This document shows positions 11,832 through 19,898 of a stretch of 32,543 nt of DNA, piece by piece (position 1 is the first letter of the stretch; each line of letters begins with the position of its first letter). The position numbers and the translations under genes were made by a program. The DNA is from Leyella stercorea DSM 18206. Its GTDB lineage: Bacteria > Bacteroidota > Bacteroidia > Bacteroidales > Bacteroidaceae. The stretch covers positions 1 through 32,543 of the forward strand of contig NZ_JH379442.1 in the NCBI RefSeq assembly GCF_000235885.1, in the 5' to 3' direction. The notes beneath the pieces are model-generated. The model saw only the letters and a list, made by a program, of their open reading frames with translations. It was not told where the DNA came from and did not search any database.

Positions 11832-13190
11832 TTATTCCCAACTCTTTACTGAGTTAAATTGATAGCCGAGGAATATACCATTATCATAGTCTGGGCTGGC
11901 AAAGTATTTTTCACCCGTAGGCTTCCAAATATATTGATTGCTATTCTCGTCAAACTCACCTTTCATGACTTCCTGATTTTTGGGCAAATACAAATCTATA
12001 TATGGGGTCCAATTGTCATCATCAAAAATACCACCTCCAGAATTTGCTTCTCCTCGCACATCCGTGAGTTCTCCCAAAGTTACTTTTTCCAACATGATAA
12101 ATCCTGCAAATGCACGTTCATCTATAGTAGAAACATTCGGAGCACAAATTTCTTCCAAATACACACAGCGGGATAAGGCATTCATTCCAATTTTTGTCAC
12201 ATCAGGCAAAAAAATAGACTTTAAAGCGTTTAATTCTTTCAAACCATCTGCAGGAATTTCCTTGCATCCTATTAGAGTGAGGTCTATAGTGGCATCTTGC
12301 ACATTCTTAAAAGCTTCACGGATAGTCTTAAACTCATTATCGCCAGCATCAGAAGCGAGGTTAAGTATTATAGCAGTCTTGCTATTTGCTACTTCTTGCT
12401 TGATTGCTGACTTTATTTCTTCTGCACTATTTGCCGAAATGACAGTAGCATCCAGTGCATAACTCTTAGCATTTTCTGTTTCTTTCGAGAATTTATAAGT
12501 TTTCAAAGTTGCTCCTCGATATTTCACTGTAACTTCGGAATTATTTTCAAAAGTACCATATAAATAGGCATTGCCCTTTTCATCAGATGTAAGGGCATAT
12601 TTTTGATCCCATTTCATATCGCTGCTGCCCGCAGGAGTGTATCTATCGATGGTTACTGTTATTGGCTTATTTGGCATAGTTGCAATGCGGAGGCGTGAAT
12701 AGTTGCGTGTTGCTCCGGAAAATTTTACGGTTATAGCCTCACCATTAGGGGTTATTTGTGCTGTTCCCTCGATGTATTCATCCGTTCCTGCAACCTTACC
12801 TTCTTTCAAAACTAATTTGCCGGCTTCCCATTTGTAATTAGGGGCATAATATACATGAGGAAAAGTTGGCACTTCGTCTTCTTTATAAGACAACTCGCCA
12901 CTTGTCAATTCCCAGCTACTGCCATTATATTTAAAAGCAGCATACTTAGTCCCTAAAGTCTTACTGGTCATCTCCAGAAGCAACTCATCTCCTACAGCCC
13001 ATGAAGTCTTGCCTTCATCAGGTGTACCAATAGCACGAGTCTGTGAATCTCCGAATGCCGGAAATTCACCAACAACCAACTGTACGTTGCTCTTGCCTGT
13101 TGTTGCGGTTGTTTCTTCTATATCACTTGTGCATGACGCCATTACTATAGTAACGACTGCCAGCATGATGTATTGAAATATCTTTTTCAT
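11832..13190 (-). CDS. Fimbrillin-family lipoprotein with BspA-like leucine-rich repeats
   Basis: A 452-residue lipoprotein, last gene of the fimbrial operon. The lipobox ends MASC with C20. The N-terminal part looks like the Mfa1/FimA-type fimbrillin domain: TR at 51-52 followed by TSWAVGDELLLEM, the TR...W..GD pattern seen in the other subunits here. Residues about 300-402 form short BspA-type leucine-rich repeats (LKSIFLPDVTKIGMNALSRC, then VYLEEICAPNVSTIDERAFA). The C-terminus is a YIWKPTGEKYF-type domain. The last position, larger size and added repeats suggest a tip or accessory adhesin rather than the shaft subunit. It starts 14 bp after the preceding stop. Confidence 0.82.
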   Translation of the reverse strand: MKKIFQYIMLAVVTIVMASCTSDIEETTATTGKSNVQLVVGEFPAFGDSQTRAIGTPDEGKTSWAVGDELLLEMTSKTLGTKYAAFKYNGSSWELTSGELSYKEDEVPTFPHVYYAPNYKWEAGKLVLKEGKVAGTDEYIEGTAQITPNGEAITVKFSGATRNYSRLRIATMPNKPITVTIDRYTPAGSSDMKWDQKYALTSDEKGNAYLYGTFENNSEVTVKYRGATLKTYKFSKETENAKSYALDATVISANSAEEIKSAIKQEVANSKTAIILNLASDAGDNEFKTIREAFKNVQDATIDLTLIGCKEIPADGLKELNALKSIFLPDVTKIGMNALSRCVYLEEICAPNVSTIDERAFAGFIMLEKVTLGELTDVRGEANSGGGIFDDDNWTPYIDLYLPKNQEVMKGEFDENSNQYIWKPTGEKYFASPDYDNGIFLGYQFNSVKSWE

Positions 13191-13204: not shown

Positions 13205-14110
13205 TTATTTGAGATCTTCTTCGTTGTTACTGTCCCAACCTTTCAAATCATCTACGCTGATTCGGGTTAGTTCCACTTTGTCTTTTCCTACATCGAGTTC
13301 GTAGATGTAGCGATAGCCTTCTTGAAAGTTCGTATCTGACCTCATTTTTGCATGGAAGTTTTTGTCGCCTATCTTGAATTTCACGAAAATATCGTCAGTT
13401 TTGTATGAACCAGGGATAACGATTGCTGAAAACATATCGCCGTCATGCTTACAGGCTTGTACCCAAGCAGGATTAGCAGTAGGTGTACTCATGACAAATT
13501 GCCCTTGTCGGTCGTCTCTGTTAAAATCAACACTATTGTGCTTAGAATACACTTGTGGTTCACTAATATCCATATTAGGATAATCTGCAGTTCCAACATG
13601 ATATACTATTGTAACCAGCGACATGCGATGCTCCATACGAATGCTTAAATCAAACCGAGGAAGATCGTGCCAATATCCAGTTATGAGATCAGCGTTTTTT
13701 AATTTACTTTCGCTGCTTTGATCTGTCTGTAAATCATACTGTAGATTATTTTTCCCAAAATCCGTGTCAGATGGATATACAGCCAAAATAGTATGTTGAT
13801 CGTAGCCTGTTAACCAACGAAAACTTCCTGTACGAGACCATTCGTTTGTTGCACTATTAAAAGAAAGAACAGTCGTACTACCAGGATCATAATCCGTAAA
13901 TATACTTACTGTCAGTTTATCTTTATCCTCCCAATTGTCACCGTATCCCAATGTATTGACACGAGTCTGCATGCCTCCAACAGAGAAAGTGGCATTGATT
14001 TCCTGCCCTTTCAGCGTTGGAGCCATATCTTCATTTTGCGTACATGCTGTAAAGCCCATAGCCATAAGGCCCATTACCGCATAGGAAATTCTTTGTTTTA
14101 TCGTCTTCAT
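13205..14110 (-). CDS. Fimbrillin-family lipoprotein, third subunit
   Basis: A 301-residue fimbrillin-type (Mfa-like) protein. The signal peptide ends in lipobox FTAC with C23. T49-R50 (GGMQTRVN) is followed by YGDNWEDKDKLTVSIF, the family pattern. In characterised FimA/Mfa1 fimbriae, cleavage after the arginine frees the strand groove for donor-strand polymerisation; the same is inferred here. The C-terminus has the usual YRYIYELDVGKDKVEL block and ends in WDSNNEEDL. It is separated from the previous fimbrillin by 88 bp containing a hairpin, and may be made at a lower level as a minor subunit. Confidence 0.82.
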   Translation of the reverse strand: MKTIKQRISYAVMGLMAMGFTACTQNEDMAPTLKGQEINATFSVGGMQTRVNTLGYGDNWEDKDKLTVSIFTDYDPGSTTVLSFNSATNEWSRTGSFRWLTGYDQHTILAVYPSDTDFGKNNLQYDLQTDQSSESKLKNADLITGYWHDLPRFDLSIRMEHRMSLVTIVYHVGTADYPNMDISEPQVYSKHNSVDFNRDDRQGQFVMSTPTANPAWVQACKHDGDMFSAIVIPGSYKTDDIFVKFKIGDKNFHAKMRSDTNFQEGYRYIYELDVGKDKVELTRISVDDLKGWDSNNEEDLK

Positions 14111-14198: not shown

Positions 14199-15179
14199 TT
14201 ATTCTATTTCTGCATCGAGAGGTTCTTTGTCTACGCCAATATCCCAACTCGTTATGTTTGCATTTCCTATTACTATACTATTATTATGAACACTGATAGT
14301 ATAAGTATATTTTTTACCACCTTCGAATCCATTTGGTAGGGATATCTTTGTTGTATAATTGTTAATAGTATTTTCGTTATACATCACATTACAACTAATG
14401 GTCAATTCTTTGTTTTCGAACTGTTGCGGGAAGAGTATGAACTTGCAGACCCTGGCATCGGTCAAAAGACCCGTTACAGGCAAAGTCGCTTTGGTGGAAG
14501 TCCCTGTGACTTCTGTCGCACCTGTTTTTACATTTATCTTACCCTGTGTCTTTATCTTGTCCAATGTTATACTTTGAAGATTACTCTTCCTGCTCTCAAC
14601 ACCTTCTCCTGCACTGACCGTAAATTCTATCATACTCATCTTGTGCTTAAAGCGATGGTCTTTCTCTGGCAAGGATTCACCCACATTATTCAAGTCAGTG
14701 AAATTAACCATTGGCGATGCTTTGCTGGCTGTTGCTCCCGAGGCAAAGAGAAAATCGTTTGCTAATAAGGTATTACTTGGATTGCTGTAATCAATAGTCC
14801 AATCATTTATTAACCAACCATTCTCATCGAATTTGTCATTATTGGGGTCATCAATGTATGGATAATACGCACTGAATGTCTGTTCCTCGTTATCTCTAAA
14901 ATAAATAGGATTTGCCGAAACAAATTCACCATATTGGTCAGATTCATACTTTACATTTGTTCCTTTTGTGTTTCCTGCGGAAGTGACGTACACACCGATA
15001 GCGTCGCCAGTTGTCCATCTGTCGTTGTCTGCAGTTCCACGGGTTTTGATATTGTTGGAAATATCCGCCTTTACGGTAGCAGCAACAGGACCATTGTTGC
15101 CGATACCGTCTTCTTCGTTAGCGCAAGCTGCAAACAGCAATGCTGCGGCAGCGATGTATAAGAATCTAAATTTCTTCAT
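14199..15179 (-). CDS. Fimbrillin-family lipoprotein, second subunit
   Basis: A 326-residue Mfa-like fimbrillin. The lipobox is FAAC with C19. T46-R47 (NNIKTRGTA) is followed by RWTTGDAIGVYV. The middle carries FKHKMSMIEFTVS, typical of the family's first domain, and the C-terminus has KKYTYTISVHNNSIVIGNANITSWDIGVD, a frequent ending in this family. It starts 22 bp after the previous fimbrillin stop. It could be shaft or accessory subunit; sequence alone does not decide. Confidence 0.86.
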   Translation of the reverse strand: MKKFRFLYIAAAALLFAACANEEDGIGNNGPVAATVKADISNNIKTRGTADNDRWTTGDAIGVYVTSAGNTKGTNVKYESDQYGEFVSANPIYFRDNEEQTFSAYYPYIDDPNNDKFDENGWLINDWTIDYSNPSNTLLANDFLFASGATASKASPMVNFTDLNNVGESLPEKDHRFKHKMSMIEFTVSAGEGVESRKSNLQSITLDKIKTQGKINVKTGATEVTGTSTKATLPVTGLLTDARVCKFILFPQQFENKELTISCNVMYNENTINNYTTKISLPNGFEGGKKYTYTISVHNNSIVIGNANITSWDIGVDKEPLDAEIE

Positions 15180-15201: not shown

Positions 15202-16095
15202 TTATTGTGCTATATGTTCATTATTGTCTCCTGCCTCTGTCCAAGGCTTAATGGTTCCAGAAATATCTACGGCAGAACGACTCAATTTTACTACTGTATA
15301 GTGGTATCTTTTGCCACCCTCAAGTTTTACAGGCATTGTCCATACAAAAGGAGCGTCGTAACCATTCTTGAGGTCAAACTCTATCACTCGGCTTGCTTCT
15401 TCTGTAGGGAGCAGGATTGCCTCATACAGCTTGCCAGCTTCGGTAGTTTTCATCGTGATGTCCGCAGGAGTTTCTTCACCAGAGATAGTTCCATCCACAA
15501 GATTGAAAGTGGCTTTGGTATTCTGACCTTTCACAGTCACAGTCATTTTCTTAAGGTCTTCTTGCGTGAGACCGTTACCTGGTTGAACATCCAAAATAAG
15601 ATTGCTTAACTTATGGAAGAACCTCAAGTCAACCTGTGGCGTAGCTTTGTTGCAACCTTCCGTCTTGGCATACATGAAGTCGATAGCTTCTTGTTTCCCT
15701 TGGTCTGTTACATCAAGTGCTACCTTGTAGTCATTGACAGTGGTCTGTGGATAGTAAGAATAGAAGTCCACATCTCCATCTATCGGGAAGAAAATAGTCT
15801 TACCACCAGAAACAGGTGAAAAGGCTATACTTCCATTTGACTGATAGCAAACATTGTCAACACCCTCTTTGATTGCATCTGCCGAGAGAGGCTGATTTGC
15901 TCCAGTCATGAAGATACCTATCTTGTCACCATCAGCCCAGGCTACACCCGCAGCACGGGTGTTTACGCTGATACCACCAGTAAACTGCACGGCTACCTTA
16001 TCGTTCTGGGTAGAAGGTGCGGTGTCTTCTGTACTGCATGAAACCATTGCACCTGCCAAGAGTGCAAGGGCGAAAAACTTAGTCATCTTTTTCAT
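15202..16095 (-). CDS. Fimbrillin-family lipoprotein, first subunit
   Basis: A 297-residue Mfa-like fimbrillin directly after the anchor gene. The lipobox is MVSC with C20; T46-R47 (SVNTRAAG) precedes VAWADGDKIGIFM. FFHKLSNLILDVQPG and KRYHYTVVKLSRSAVDISG are typical family blocks, ending in IKPWTEAGDNNEHI. The Arg-Ala junction resembles the protease site of FimA-type prepilins. Its place next to the FimB/Mfa2-type gene and its compact size make it a reasonable candidate for the main shaft subunit, which is inference. Confidence 0.87.
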   Translation of the reverse strand: MKKMTKFFALALLAGAMVSCSTEDTAPSTQNDKVAVQFTGGISVNTRAAGVAWADGDKIGIFMTGANQPLSADAIKEGVDNVCYQSNGSIAFSPVSGGKTIFFPIDGDVDFYSYYPQTTVNDYKVALDVTDQGKQEAIDFMYAKTEGCNKATPQVDLRFFHKLSNLILDVQPGNGLTQEDLKKMTVTVKGQNTKATFNLVDGTISGEETPADITMKTTEAGKLYEAILLPTEEASRVIEFDLKNGYDAPFVWTMPVKLEGGKRYHYTVVKLSRSAVDISGTIKPWTEAGDNNEHIAQ

Positions 16096-16120: not shown

Positions 16121-17014
16121 TTATTTTATTTCTACTTCATTGTTGAGGTTCGTCCAACCGTTGATGGTAGCTTCCAGATTCATCTTTGGCTGCATTTGGT
16201 TGTAGTTGAGTCGCAACTCATACTTTCCTCCAACCTTCATCGCAGGAGCGGTGATGTCATACTCTTGCAAGGTCCCGTTAGGGAGCAAGAGGCGGAGATA
16301 AACATGAGAGGCGGGGCTTCCCTGTATGGTCGGCATCAGCCGGATGACTTCTGATTGCAAAGTTGACTCAGTAGCCAAGATAGTAGGCATTTCCACTTCC
16401 GTTGGATCTATGCTCGGCAATCCATATTCTCCATCACTATTCTTCTGTGTAGGGAACAGACACCAGGCTGCATCTAATGCCTTGCCACTCATCTCTGTAC
16501 CTTTAGGTACATTCTCTATGATGATGGTCAGTTCGGCAAGCACGCTCTTGATAGGATTCTGCACCACATAGTTGCCTTCCTTGTTGTCAATCCTCACGTC
16601 GGTCACTCCGAAATAAGCATTATGGTTCACATCCTTAGGATTGGTCAAGCCTATCTGGATATTGTTCCAATTAGTCAAAGCCCTGGTCTGGTCACCGATA
16701 GTAAACGGTTCTGTGAGATTGGTGGCAGCCAAGATGCGATACGACCCTTCAGGAAGAACGAAGCGCTGGCTTGCCACCTCCTTAGCACTACTATAATGTT
16801 TTTCCTCTACCAAGGAGCCATCATCGGCATTGAATATCCAGAGCTTCACGTCCTTCACTTCCGTACCTTGGTCGGCTTCATCCGCCCAAGTGAGCGATAC
16901 TGACAAACCACCCTCATCCTCACCATCATGAACATTATGGTCACAACTTGCCAACAGGCATGGGACGCATAACAGCACCCATAACCAAATATTAAATCTT
17001 CTTTTTGCTTTCAT
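16121..17014 (-). CDS. FimB/Mfa2-family fimbrial anchor subunit
   Basis: A 297-residue lipoprotein (lipobox LASC, C24) of the FimB/Mfa2 group, which anchors fimbriae to the outer membrane and limits their length. Family features seen are GLSVSLTWADE near the mature N-terminus, VKLWIFNADDGSLV, and FVLPEGSYRILAATNL. The C-terminal half has VYLRLLLPNGTLQEYDI and the family ending KYELRLNYNQ, then TINGW. No TR cleavage site is present, unlike the subunits downstream, consistent with an anchor that is not proteolytically activated. It starts 20 bp after the OmpA-domain gene. Confidence 0.88.
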   Translation of the reverse strand: MKAKRRFNIWLWVLLCVPCLLASCDHNVHDGEDEGGLSVSLTWADEADQGTEVKDVKLWIFNADDGSLVEEKHYSSAKEVASQRFVLPEGSYRILAATNLTEPFTIGDQTRALTNWNNIQIGLTNPKDVNHNAYFGVTDVRIDNKEGNYVVQNPIKSVLAELTIIIENVPKGTEMSGKALDAAWCLFPTQKNSDGEYGLPSIDPTEVEMPTILATESTLQSEVIRLMPTIQGSPASHVYLRLLLPNGTLQEYDITAPAMKVGGKYELRLNYNQMQPKMNLEATINGWTNLNNEVEIK

Positions 17015-17034: not shown

Positions 17035-18303
17035 TTACTTATGATTGTCTTTAGTCTCTACTCGGCGAGCCTTATCCGCATCTTGGGTGTCATCGCTACC
17101 ATTTCCTATTGCAGTAATGCGATTAGCCTCTATGCCATTCTTCACAAGCCAAGTCTTTACGGTTTCTGCACGCTGGCGAGATATACGTTTATTGACAGCC
17201 ACGCTGCCTTTCGTGTCGCACCAACCTGTTACAGTCACCTTCATCTGCGGATTCTCCTTCAATGTATGTAGGATAGCATTCAGCTTCGACAGCTCGCTCT
17301 GCTTGATGCCGATACTGTTGAAAGCGAAGTAGACGATGGGGAATGTCGCCTTCGGCTGTTCAACCACCTCTTGCTCTCCCACTCTTGTCTCAGCTTTTTC
17401 GGCAGTCTCCTGCTGGAGGGTGGTCTCCTTAGGAGTGGTCTCCAGCTGCTGCACTTCAGGTTCTGTTGTCCTCACTTCGGGTTCTGCTATCGGCGTTGTT
17501 TCCACAGCCACGTTCTTCTTTTTAGCCTTTGCGAAGCTTATCCCCAACCTTATGCCACTTTCCCAAACAAAGTTGTTCTTATGCAGATGCTCTGGCATTC
17601 CGTCCATACGTTCGCCAGTAAGACGAGTCAAACCGGAATAGATGCCCAATTTCAGGCATGAAGTCAGTTGATAACCAACCTGCAAGTCTGCACCATAACC
17701 CAAATGCCAGTTGGTAGAACCTTTCATTACCTTGGCATCATCGGCTATAGTCTGGATATCAGCCTTGGTCGTTACTGCATATATATGAGGCGATACAGCC
17801 AAATCCCATCGGCTGTTAGCTGTCTTATGGAACAACCCAAGGAGATTAACGTTCACTCTTGCTCCGTATCTGCCCATCCTGACATGGCTTTTCAGATTGG
17901 CATACTCCCAACTGTCCATGCCTAAGACACCTGCCTTGTAAAGCACACCGTCGCTACCCAACCAATAGTTACGTTCTACGCAGCAGTCTTGTGCAGACAA
18001 GTTCATTTCTCCATACTTGGCAGACAATTCTGCCGAGAAGATGGAGTTGAAACGATAGCCGCCATATACGCCAGCAGCCCAACCGAGATGCGTCTTGTCG
18101 TGTCCGAAACTTGAGAAAGTAGAGAAACCGAAAGGCATTCCACCCTCAATACCGACGTACCAGCCTTGCGAAATAGTCTTTCCGTCTTCTTTTGCTTCTG
18201 CTTTCGCAAAAGAAAATGGGAGAATAAATGCAAGCATTGCGACCAGCAACCGATTTTTTGTTGTCAAATGATTTACCATATTATTTCGTTTATTTTTTTT
18301 CAT
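17035..18303 (-). CDS. DUF3575-type barrel protein with OmpA domain, fimbrial locus
   Basis: A 422-residue outer membrane protein. Residues about 14-36 are a signal peptide. Residues about 46-258 look like a small beta-barrel (GWYVGIEGGMPFGFSTF, GVYGGYRFNSIFSAEL, HLGYGADLQVGYQL), as in DUF3575 proteins. Residues about 260-318 are a Glu/Thr/Pro-rich linker. Residues 322-420 are an OmpA peptidoglycan-binding domain (VYFAFNS, then GWCDTKGSVAVNKRISRQRA). Such genes commonly open Bacteroidota fimbrial operons and may support assembly or anchoring. The start overlaps the stop of the small membrane protein by 4 bp (ATGA); a second ATG lies at 18279. Confidence 0.85.
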   Translation of the reverse strand: MKKNKRNNMVNHLTTKNRLLVAMLAFILPFSFAKAEAKEDGKTISQGWYVGIEGGMPFGFSTFSSFGHDKTHLGWAAGVYGGYRFNSIFSAELSAKYGEMNLSAQDCCVERNYWLGSDGVLYKAGVLGMDSWEYANLKSHVRMGRYGARVNVNLLGLFHKTANSRWDLAVSPHIYAVTTKADIQTIADDAKVMKGSTNWHLGYGADLQVGYQLTSCLKLGIYSGLTRLTGERMDGMPEHLHKNNFVWESGIRLGISFAKAKKKNVAVETTPIAEPEVRTTEPEVQQLETTPKETTLQQETAEKAETRVGEQEVVEQPKATFPIVYFAFNSIGIKQSELSKLNAILHTLKENPQMKVTVTGWCDTKGSVAVNKRISRQRAETVKTWLVKNGIEANRITAIGNGSDDTQDADKARRVETKDNHK

Positions 18304-18545
18304 TCCAGGAAATACAAGAGGTTTGTCAGAAAGATAAATATGGATGCCAACAGCAAAAAGATATAAAAGCGTTCTCTCTTGATGAAGTCACGAAAGCTAT
18401 AGCGAGCCTTCCAATGATTCTCAAGATACATCCTGTACTCATGTATCATGGCATATCCGAAGATAATACATAATATGAGTACAAACACCCCGATGATGAT
18501 CAGGGCTAATTCAATCCTTGGCATAGTTTCTATTATTTCCTTCAT
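18300..18545 (-). CDS. Small two-TM membrane protein at the head of the fimbrial operon
   Basis: An 81-residue protein with two hydrophobic helices (IELALIIIGVFVLILCIIFG, and FYIFLLLASIFIFLTNLLYF) joined by a basic loop (HWKARYSFRDFIKRER). I do not recognise a family. Its ATGA overlap with the OmpA-domain gene implies coupled translation and a role in the fimbrial system. The promoter element ends only 5 nt before ATG 18545, so that start would be leaderless; ATG 18524, giving a 74-residue protein, is the alternative. Confidence 0.7.
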   Translation of the reverse strand: MKEIIETMPRIELALIIIGVFVLILCIIFGYAMIHEYRMYLENHWKARYSFRDFIKRERFYIFLLLASIFIFLTNLLYFLE

Positions 18546-18549
18546 GTTG

Positions 18550-18557
18550 CAAATATA
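18550..18557 (-). promoter_or_regulatory. -7 element of the fimbrial operon promoter
   Basis: TATATTTG on the minus strand matches TAnnTTTG. No TTTG is present 19-20 bp upstream, which fits a promoter that needs an activator. The repeat/palindrome at 18599-18654 lies where such an activator would bind. Confidence 0.6.
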
Positions 18558-18598
18558 GTGTATTGCCCAGAAAGAAGGTGCTGTTTTTCACTGTTCAA

Positions 18599-18654
18599 GT
18601 GTCGCATTCATACCAAAAAGGTGTCGCATTCGTAGGAATGCGACACCTTTTTGG
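18599..18654 (-). promoter_or_regulatory. Candidate operator plus terminator: GTGTCGCATTC repeats
   Basis: GTGTCGCATTC occurs as direct repeats at 18599-18609 and 18621-18631, exactly 22 bp apart, and inverted at 18636-18646. The latter two are the core of a perfect 19-bp palindrome (18613-18631 with 18636-18654, 4-nt loop) ending in T5. Read as RNA it is a strong terminator for the regulator gene ending at 18712. Read as DNA, three boxes about 60-100 bp upstream of the fimbrial start fit an AraC-type activator site. Confidence 0.7.
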
Positions 18655-18711: not shown

Positions 18712-19164
18712 TCAATTTGAATCATTTTGTGCTGCATCTGTAGATTGGAAGTCTCTCCATTCTGTCGGAGAACAGCCTTCTTTTGTCTTGAAGATTCGGT
18801 AAAGATGAGTGCGACAAGAGAATCCACACTCGGCTGAAATGATGTCGTTGTTATAATCTGGATATTCCAACATCATCTTCTTTGCAGCGTTGAAACGTAT
18901 CTCGCTGAGCCATATTCGGAAGTTAGAGTGCAAGCATTGATCGAAAAACAGGCTCAATTCGTTCTTTGATATACAAAGTGTACGAGAAAGCGTCAACATA
19001 TTTACGTTGCTGTCCTTATAGCCTCCATTCGCACACCACTCATCAAGCTTTTGCTGTACGAATACTCTACGCTCCTCCGAAATCGGGTTCATACGCTTTG
19101 TGGTAGCCTCCCGCGGGCTTTTCTGCCCATCCGAAAAAGGATTTACCCCCCCGATGCTCCACAC
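18712..19164 (-). CDS. AraC-family DNA-binding domain, fimbrial regulator 3' part
   Basis: A 150-codon frame encoding an AraC-type double helix-turn-helix: VNMLTLSRTLCISKNELSLF for the first unit, IRFNAAKKMMLEYPDY for the linker helix, and IISAECGFSCRTHLYRIF with CSPTEWRDF for the second. On its own it lacks any sensor domain. It overlaps the upstream membrane-protein frame by 22 bp in another frame, and one extra G in the G7 tract at 19146-19152 would join the two into one protein of about 395 residues. GTG 19164 or ATG 19092 could allow separate translation. It precedes the fimbrial operon on the same strand and is its likely activator. Confidence 0.82.
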   Translation of the reverse strand: MWSIGGVNPFSDGQKSPREATTKRMNPISEERRVFVQQKLDEWCANGGYKDSNVNMLTLSRTLCISKNELSLFFDQCLHSNFRIWLSEIRFNAAKKMMLEYPDYNNDIISAECGFSCRTHLYRIFKTKEGCSPTEWRDFQSTDAAQNDSN

Positions 19165-19898
19165 TCCACATTCGGTTTCATCGATTCCTCTTCCTTATAC
19201 AGGAGTTCTCCTGTTGGAATATAACTGCTGCCAAGAGCGATAAATGTAAGGTTGAAGAACAACAAGGCAAGCAATACAGCAGGACCTACTATATATAATA
19301 AGGTGGTAGAAAAGATGGCAATCGGCATAGCGAGAACTGCGAGCCAGAGAATGATTACACTTGCACGCGAATATCTCACGTAAGGCAACATATCCGTTGC
19401 AGCCATTGTCTCCAACATATTCTTACGCCTGATCATCTCCTGAATAATCATGTATATGCAATATAAAACACTTAGGCAAAACAACGCAAGCATCACATAA
19501 AGCCCCTCTCTGATATACAGACTATGATGGAAACTGATACCCACACAAAAGACCACAATGATGGCAGCATAAATGCCACTACACATCAGTATCATCTTTC
19601 TGAGGTTGGAACGTGTGGTCTCTATGTTGTAGATACCTAAAGAGATAAGCGAGAAGCAGGGCGTATAGACGAGAATGTTGATGACCGCCCCAAGACTGTC
19701 GTCGGCAGCACGGAATCCGAAAACCATCTGCACCGCATATTGTATCGCCAGTCCTATTAAGGCGACAACGATCATCCATCGTGAACGCTCATACCGCTTG
19801 TTCTCCCATCTTACATGCAGATGAGAGAGCCCCACAAACAGCCCGTTGATAAGCATGAATATGAAACATGCAAACTGAAGTAGAAATAATGAATCCAT
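19143..19898 (-). CDS. Seven-TM sensor part of the fimbrial regulator
   Basis: A 251-residue integral membrane protein with about seven helices, for example CFIFMLINGLFVGLS, WMIVVALIGLAIQYAVQMVF, MILMCSGIYAAIIVVFCVGI and SVIILWLAVLAMPIAIF. It stops right after a run of seven G (ECGASGG, stop), while the frame one base over continues into an AraC domain. Membrane-spanning N-termini fused to AraC domains are known in Bacteroidota, so this is probably the sensor half of a single gene read in an OFF state, by programmed slippage, or with a sequencing error. No promoter is obvious in the 74 bp after lptD. Confidence 0.8.
   Translation of the reverse strand: MDSLFLLQFACFIFMLINGLFVGLSHLHVRWENKRYERSRWMIVVALIGLAIQYAVQMVFGFRAADDSLGAVINILVYTPCFSLISLGIYNIETTRSNLRKMILMCSGIYAAIIVVFCVGISFHHSLYIREGLYVMLALFCLSVLYCIYMIIQEMIRRKNMLETMAATDMLPYVRYSRASVIILWLAVLAMPIAIFSTTLLYIVGPAVLLALLFFNLTFIALGSSYIPTGELLYKEEESMKPNVECGASGG
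19146..19152 (-). other. G7 homopolymer at the junction of the split regulator
   Basis: Seven C on the plus strand (G7 in the coding sense). With seven, the membrane frame reads GGG GGG TAA and stops; with eight it reads GGG GGG GTA AAT and continues into the AraC domain. The context G GGG GGG is also a slippery sequence for -1 frameshifting, with the stop codon directly after it. Confidence 0.85.

Follow-up and report, generated by a model that had tools for sequence, protein, structure and literature searches.

The window analysed here, a stretch of 32,543 nucleotides from Leyella stercorea DSM 18206, carries a putative regulator gene whose membrane part and DNA-binding part lie in different reading frames that meet at a run of seven G residues, next to a set of fimbrial genes. 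The question raised by this locus is whether such a gene is broken, wrongly sequenced, read through by a shift of frame, or caught in one state of a switch.

A regulator gene divided between two frames

The three elements of the gene are as follows.

19143..19898, minus strand: membrane half of the regulator (251 aa), with seven predicted transmembrane helices and a TAA right after the G run
19146..19152, minus strand: G7 tract joining the two halves, the proposed slipped-strand switch
18712..19164, minus strand: DNA-binding half of AraC type (HTH_18), read in the other frame; the GTG at 19164 is merely the mechanical start of the frame

The membrane frame (ORF 19898-19143) has the C-terminal end ...ECGASGG, and the AraC-type frame (ORF 19164-18712, 150 aa) crosses the G7. 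The run is followed at 19145-19143 by TAA, such that the end of the membrane frame reads GCA TCG GGG GGG TAA; on the plus strand the joint reads ...ATTTA CCCCCCC GATGCTCC.... Pfam searches gave an HTH_18 match for the AraC-type frame (E 3.3e-15), which identifies an AraC/XylS-type DNA-binding domain, together with an HTH_AraC match slightly under the curated cut-off, and no match at E 0.01 for the membrane frame. Thus the initial annotation, in which a membrane frame stops after the G7 and an AraC domain continues in another frame, was borne out by the sequence, the open reading frames and Pfam. The two frames are one slip of the G run apart, again as had been described, and the product of about 395 residues predicted for a restored frame is close to the 375-399 aa of fused close relatives. 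The gene has the hallmark of a slipped-strand phase-variable gene, a homopolymer within it whose length determines the reading frame. A G7 is within chance for this window (at least one was present in 40 of 100 shuffles), so the significance of the run lies in its position and its retention in relatives.

The seven membrane helices were taken from the predicted structure of a fused relative (L043), a model of low confidence (mean pLDDT 64.2). When the loop limits were placed by hand, lysine and arginine residues numbered 5, 3 and 4 in the loops after helices 1, 3 and 5, and 1, 1 and 0 in those after helices 2, 4 and 6. By the positive-inside rule, the basis for orienting membrane helices, these counts would place the C-terminal AraC domain in the cytosol. 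Helix limits from the low-confidence model itself left too few loop charges to orient the protein, as the charged loops were modelled as parts of helices. Fold searches of the PDB with the same model returned AraC-type domains first, then microbial rhodopsins and other seven-helix proteins, none of them at E 0.001 or better; given the low-confidence model and these weak matches, we make no claim about the fold of the membrane half.

Run length and reading frame vary among close relatives

When a single genome per species was scanned for 84,980 species, with six short peptide patterns as the first filter, 16 loci came out; relatives may have been missed by this filter. We defined a close homologue as one with a membrane half about 75% identical or more and an evaluable joint. 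Left out by this definition were L053 (cut by a contig end), L055 (large deletions) and L056 and L057 (short fragments), and L052 (62% identical) was counted apart, leaving 11 loci that with the window made 12 close homologues. Two pairs of labels denote the same place (L039 and L045; L040 and L046). A family-wide search of 399 genomes probably returned the same strains again, judged by positions and frames, and a protein search of viral contigs found no relative, although a 14-base pattern taken from the joint matched 74 times there.

A run of G6 to G8 was present at the joint in 8 of the 12 close homologues.

Window: G7, out of frame, in one offset
L047, Leyella stercorea: G6, out of frame, offset other than that of the window
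L045 and L046, two loci of S. copri Indica: G8, out of frame, offset other than that of the window
L042, S. copri iA622: G8, out of frame, offset other than that of the window
L050, S. copri iAQ1173: G8, out of frame, offset other than that of the window
L043 and L044: G7, fused, 376 aa

Six of the eight run-bearing copies were thus out of frame, five sharing one offset and the window having the other. L043 and L044 are near-identical sequences filed under two species, and so were counted as a single independent fused allele with a run. Altogether, run lengths of 6, 7 and 8 and three frame relations, the fused one included, were found among close homologues. The initial annotation had allowed that relatives might all show one corrected length, or might encode the two parts as stable separate genes without a homopolymer; no single corrected length emerged, and the out-of-frame relatives do not fit separate genes, as most of the close homologues keep the run.

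The other four close homologues (L048, L049, L051 and L054) lacked a run. L048, L051 and L054 were fused, as were the more distant L052 and L041, also without a run. L049 was broken by a frameshift and had a shortened AraC frame; as it is broken without a run, ordinary loss occurs too. Prevotella sp. 885 carries a regulator copy with large internal deletions (L055:8001-8441) beside a fimbrial block, and a G6 run persists near the old joint of this deleted copy. More distant loci had a single open frame of 352-411 aa without a linker run in 24 of 24 examined. This distant set came from 38 loci, which gave 30 matches, less six that were the window or relatives counted elsewhere; it omits the eight loci without a match, L035 (G154, open frame of 164 aa) among them, and two other short frames, G040:C5 (127 aa) and G072:C73 (292 aa). 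Pfam confirmed the AraC domain in one distant locus, L178.

The run is kept in a diverged linker and both halves appear to be under selection

Compared with the window, the seven run-bearing relatives were 84-91% identical at the DNA level in the membrane half and 42-54% in the linker, with the linkers of some relatives closer to each other (L042 and L043, 83%). The expected chance of a run of at least six G in a 75-base linker is 0.0007 (about one run per 109 kb of strand). In all six out-of-frame run-bearing copies the change of frame was confined to a short overlap of otherwise open frames, the run lay inside that overlap, and no lesion beyond the overlap had to be supposed.

Ratios of non-synonymous to synonymous change (dN/dS) for the membrane and AraC halves were 0.18 and 0.16 between the window and L047, 0.11 and 0.09 between the window and L045, and 0.17 and 0.15 between L045 and L050; for the AraC half of the window and L042 the value was 0.33. 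Ratios above 1 were obtained for the AraC half in two very close pairs with few changes (L045 and L046, 1.10; L042 and L048, 2.15), and for many distant pairs dN/dS was undefined because synonymous sites were saturated. These sequence comparisons indicate that purifying selection is acting on both halves between out-of-frame copies.

The regulator adjoins a type V fimbrial block

Downstream of the regulator, in the same orientation, lie the following genes.

18300..18545, minus strand: small membrane protein ORF, 81 aa, which opens the fimbrial block
17035..18303, minus strand: OmpA-family outer membrane protein
16121..17014, minus strand: Mfa2-type anchor subunit
15202..16095, minus strand: fimbrillin, Mfa_like_1
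14199..15179, minus strand: fimbrillin, Mfa_like_1
13205..14110, minus strand: fimbrillin, Mfa_like_1
11832..13190, minus strand: protein whose BspA-type LRR match falls slightly short of the curated cut-off; it ends the block common to relatives

An Mfa2-type anchor and fimbrillin subunits thus occur in one block, as in a type V fimbrial operon, and the position of the regulator directly upstream of fimbrial genes, which had been noted at the outset, is confirmed by this block and by its presence in relatives. Matches to the block followed the regulator in L044, L045, L046, L048 and L055, in L054 without the OmpA gene, and in L047 as far as the contig end. In L043 there were only fimbrillin matches, about 6 kb further on. 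Within the stretch compared, no fimbrial block was found after L049, L050, L051 or L052; for L042 the stretch compared ends too soon to show one.

Candidate operator sites vary with the type of AraC domain

Between the regulator and the first gene of the block lies a short series of repeats.

18636..18646, minus strand: operator-like site 1, GTGTCGCATTC, opposite in orientation to sites 2 and 3
18621..18631, minus strand: operator-like site 2, GAATGCGACAC
18599..18609, minus strand: operator-like site 3, GAATGCGACAC, 22 bp after site 2
18578..18588, minus strand: possible fourth site (site 4) in degenerate form, AAAAACAGCAC, which agrees with site 3 in 6 of 11 bases and follows it at 21 bp
18550..18557, minus strand: TATATTTG, -7-like element, 52 bp from the start of site 3

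The 3.1-Mb genome contains three copies of the 11-mer GTGTCGCATTC, one inverted and two direct, and all of them are in the fimbrial promoter; TATATTTG agrees with the Bacteroidota -7 element consensus. At the distance of site 4, an exact or one-mismatch copy was found in L041 and L052, and two-mismatch copies in L045, L046, L047, L049 and L054.

The repeats changed with the AraC domain. Where this domain was of the SCRTH type, GAATGCGACAC-type sites were present at 7 of 7 loci (the window, L042, L043, L044, L047, L048 and L055), with two of the L047 sites carrying one mismatch. All four loci with a SARTY domain and the promoter present (L045, L046, L049 and L051) had GAAGTAGACAC-type sites; in L051 these were the first two only, one with a mismatch, in agreement with the expectation set beforehand for L050 and L051, and the SARTY locus L050 was without such a promoter. 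L052 (SSRSY) had GAAGTAGACAC-type sites, and L054 (SSRTY) and L041 (SSRTH) had mixed types. Since the sites adjoin the AraC end of the gene, the match between site and domain may also reflect shared descent or linked exchange. The inverted repeat of sites 1 and 2 could serve as a terminator of the regulator gene. A reading of the promoter repeat as a hairpin only was rejected, as the third copy, outside the inverted pair, changes likewise in L045, L046 and L049. AraC-type activators usually use direct repeats about two helical turns apart next to the promoter. The candidate sites here are direct repeats spaced by 22 bp (21 bp to the weak next copy) and vary with the domain type; their spacing beside the promoter suggests an activator.

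The two halves of the gene also differ in their closest relatives (L045, L046, L048 and L049 as against L042 and L043). The membrane half of L048 is 97% identical to that of L045 and 92% to that of L042, whereas its AraC half is 75% identical to L045 and 98% to L042, and trees of the two halves place L048 accordingly (supports 0.27 to 1). From this discordance, the AraC domain and the promoter sites seem to have been exchanged together as one piece, with the boundary at the run-bearing joint.

Long G runs in the rest of the genome

Runs of G in the genome numbered 39 of G6, 4 of G7, 7 of G8, 6 of G9 and 1 of G10, which is not a falling series. There were 14 runs of G8 or longer as compared with about 0.5 expected if the fall from G6 to G7 had continued, an excess that weakens under milder assumed decay (P about 8e-6 at a ratio of 0.25 and 0.02 at 0.35). 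Nine of these 14 fall within genes counted as surface-related, acyltransferase genes included, either at the start (signal peptides among them) or in the body.

DUF285/BspA-like protein genes: G8-G9 runs in L162 (C9) and L170 (C96)
Alpha-galactosidase-like protein gene: G8-G9 run in L163 (C28)
Two long frames with signal-peptide-like starts and no Pfam family: G8-G9 runs in L173 (G000:C116:75400-79400) and L176 (C120:136600-140600)
TonB receptor gene: G8-G9 run in L177 (C146)
Three acyltransferase genes: G8-G9 runs in L166 (C46) and, two of them, in L168 (C79)

A reading of the three frames puts three of the nine in frame (L177 and both runs in L168) and six out, coincidentally the proportion of one third that random slippage would give. 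The other five of the 14 (L164, L169, L171, L172 and L174) have no clear intragenic place. The longest G run of the genome, a G10 at G000:C94:22604-22613, is outside obvious surface genes; the gene near it, which we named by eye, we take to resemble that of ribosomal protein L17. In the genus at least one run of G8 or longer was present in 117 of 119 sampled genomes, and three genomes of this sample (G059, G097 and G125) had more than 55 such runs each.

A proposed slipped-strand switch and its alternatives

The reading that we prefer, and consider likely on these comparisons, is that an AraC activator of fimbriae, tethered to the membrane, undergoes slipped-strand phase variation. The intact product would be a single membrane-tethered transcription factor, with seven transmembrane helices, a cytosolic C-terminus, a linker and an AraC-type DNA-binding domain, and would probably activate the adjoining downstream fimbrial operon by binding the repeated promoter sites. 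The G run in the linker would gain or lose bases through slipped-strand mispairing at replication. One frame would then give the full regulator, so that the fimbrial operon could switch on, and the other two would give the membrane half alone, with fimbriae expected to be off; the window assembly would represent the off state. The proposal of such a switch in the initial annotation is supported by the retention of the run at the joint in the majority of close homologues, by the mixed lengths and by the three frame relations. We infer length change by slippage at replication from the mixture of lengths and frames among relatives; reversibility within a strain, the direction of action as an activator and the fimbrial phenotype are likewise inferred.

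Programmed ribosomal frameshifting or transcriptional slippage at the run, which would yield membrane-only and fused protein from one allele, is an improbable alternative. RNA polymerase and ribosomes may slip on G runs, this run lies within the frame overlap, and in the window it is directly followed by a stop. However, a programmed shift requires a fixed direction, and the copies do not share one: the offset of the window differs from that of five other copies, and L043/L044 are fused; the -1 shift that had initially been considered thus fails on the mixed lengths and frame relations. Moreover, the flanks of the run have diverged between copies, with no conserved slippery site of the kind that defines a programmed frameshift, and the nine surface-gene runs of the same genome show a similar mix of frames. 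RNA slippage in both directions may still act as a leak. There is similarly little probability that the gene is intact in the window and only appears split through an assembly or sequencing error. One wrong base in the homopolymer would yield exactly the picture seen in this one genome, and the earlier caution on this point holds for the length given in the window assembly; it does not extend to the relatives, where five other copies from four named strains (L042, L045, L046, L047 and L050) are out of frame too, and where an error could alter the length of a run yet could not place runs in diverged linkers.

It is quite unlikely that the two halves are separate proteins, one in the membrane and the other a soluble AraC protein with its start near the run; the switch would then alter tethering and not presence. 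In the AraC frame the run is immediately preceded by an ATG in L045 and L046, and a GTG precedes it in the window and L042, but in L047 and L050 there is no ATG, GTG or TTG just before the run, and the single long frame of all 24 distant homologues also speaks against it. Permanent loss of the regulator in the lineage, as a decaying pseudogene, we regard as very unlikely indeed: L049 and L055 show that copies do decay, but the out-of-frame run-bearing copies are without exception free of any lesion outside the overlap, and purifying selection appears to hold on both of their halves, a picture unusual for a pseudogene.

Comparison with known switches

Slipped-strand switching of the regulator, as preferred above, has a counterpart in bvgS of Bordetella pertussis, where a C6/C7 tract in a regulator gene switches phases (PMC1891110). 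In both systems, going by the passages of that report that deal with the tract, a short C/G run lies in the coding part of a regulator and a one-base change truncates it, turning the programme off, and the run in the window is as short as the C6/C7 of bvgS (PMC1891110). They differ in that BvgS is a sensor kinase with a wide regulon, whereas the regulator here is a one-chain seven-helix AraC protein beside one fimbrial block in a gut member of the Bacteroidota. By this analogy bvgS appears to be the closest system in mechanism. In Streptococcus pyogenes, homopolymer length affects a surface protein and a neighbouring transcriptional regulator (Spy1336/R28-Spy1337), but in the part of the published account concerned with it that run is intergenic and alters transcript level, not reading frame (PMC7098570).

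Phase variation in gut Bacteroidales has been described as DNA inversion (PMC12632263). The invertible promoters of this same bacterial order likewise turn surface structures on and off, but they use recombinase-mediated DNA inversion and not a change of run length; the word 'slipped' occurs 0 times in the main text of this review (PMC12632263). In the literature searched, with most subscription journals outside its scope, no account was found of phase variation by run length in Prevotella or Segatella.

With its Mfa2 anchor and Mfa_like_1 fimbrillins the block resembles other type V fimbrial operons of the Mfa/FimA family, and differs from them in that its regulator is a seven-helix AraC protein. 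In Porphyromonas fimbrial regulation is by FimS/FimR. A further counterpart is a helix-turn-helix protein of 8.9-kb Bacteroidales plasmids (10 records; e.g. NZ_CP072240.1), which is about 31% identical over 89% of the membrane part and has a C-terminal AraC domain but, unlike the gene in the window, a single long frame whose linker lacks a G run. On NZ_CP072240.1 the gene after this seven-helix AraC homologue (L178:2445-3500) encodes a 551-aa protein without a clear family assignment, and annotated fimbrial genes were not found beside the homologue in the two plasmids looked at.

A wider reading, which we offer tentatively and would put at somewhat under an even chance, is that gut bacteria of the Prevotella/Segatella type have a genome-wide set of poly-G switches in which the fimbrial runs sit at a modular joint; in front of it the seven-helix sensor would be conserved, and after it the AraC domain would be swapped together with matching promoter sites, so that several loci per cell could flip independently without cross-talk. 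The run-length switch on the fimbrial regulator would by itself give common bacteria of the human gut a second way, simple to read, of varying their surface from strain to strain: the frame states of the regulator would be countable directly from existing reads, and genes switched by run length would be easily mistaken for broken ones.
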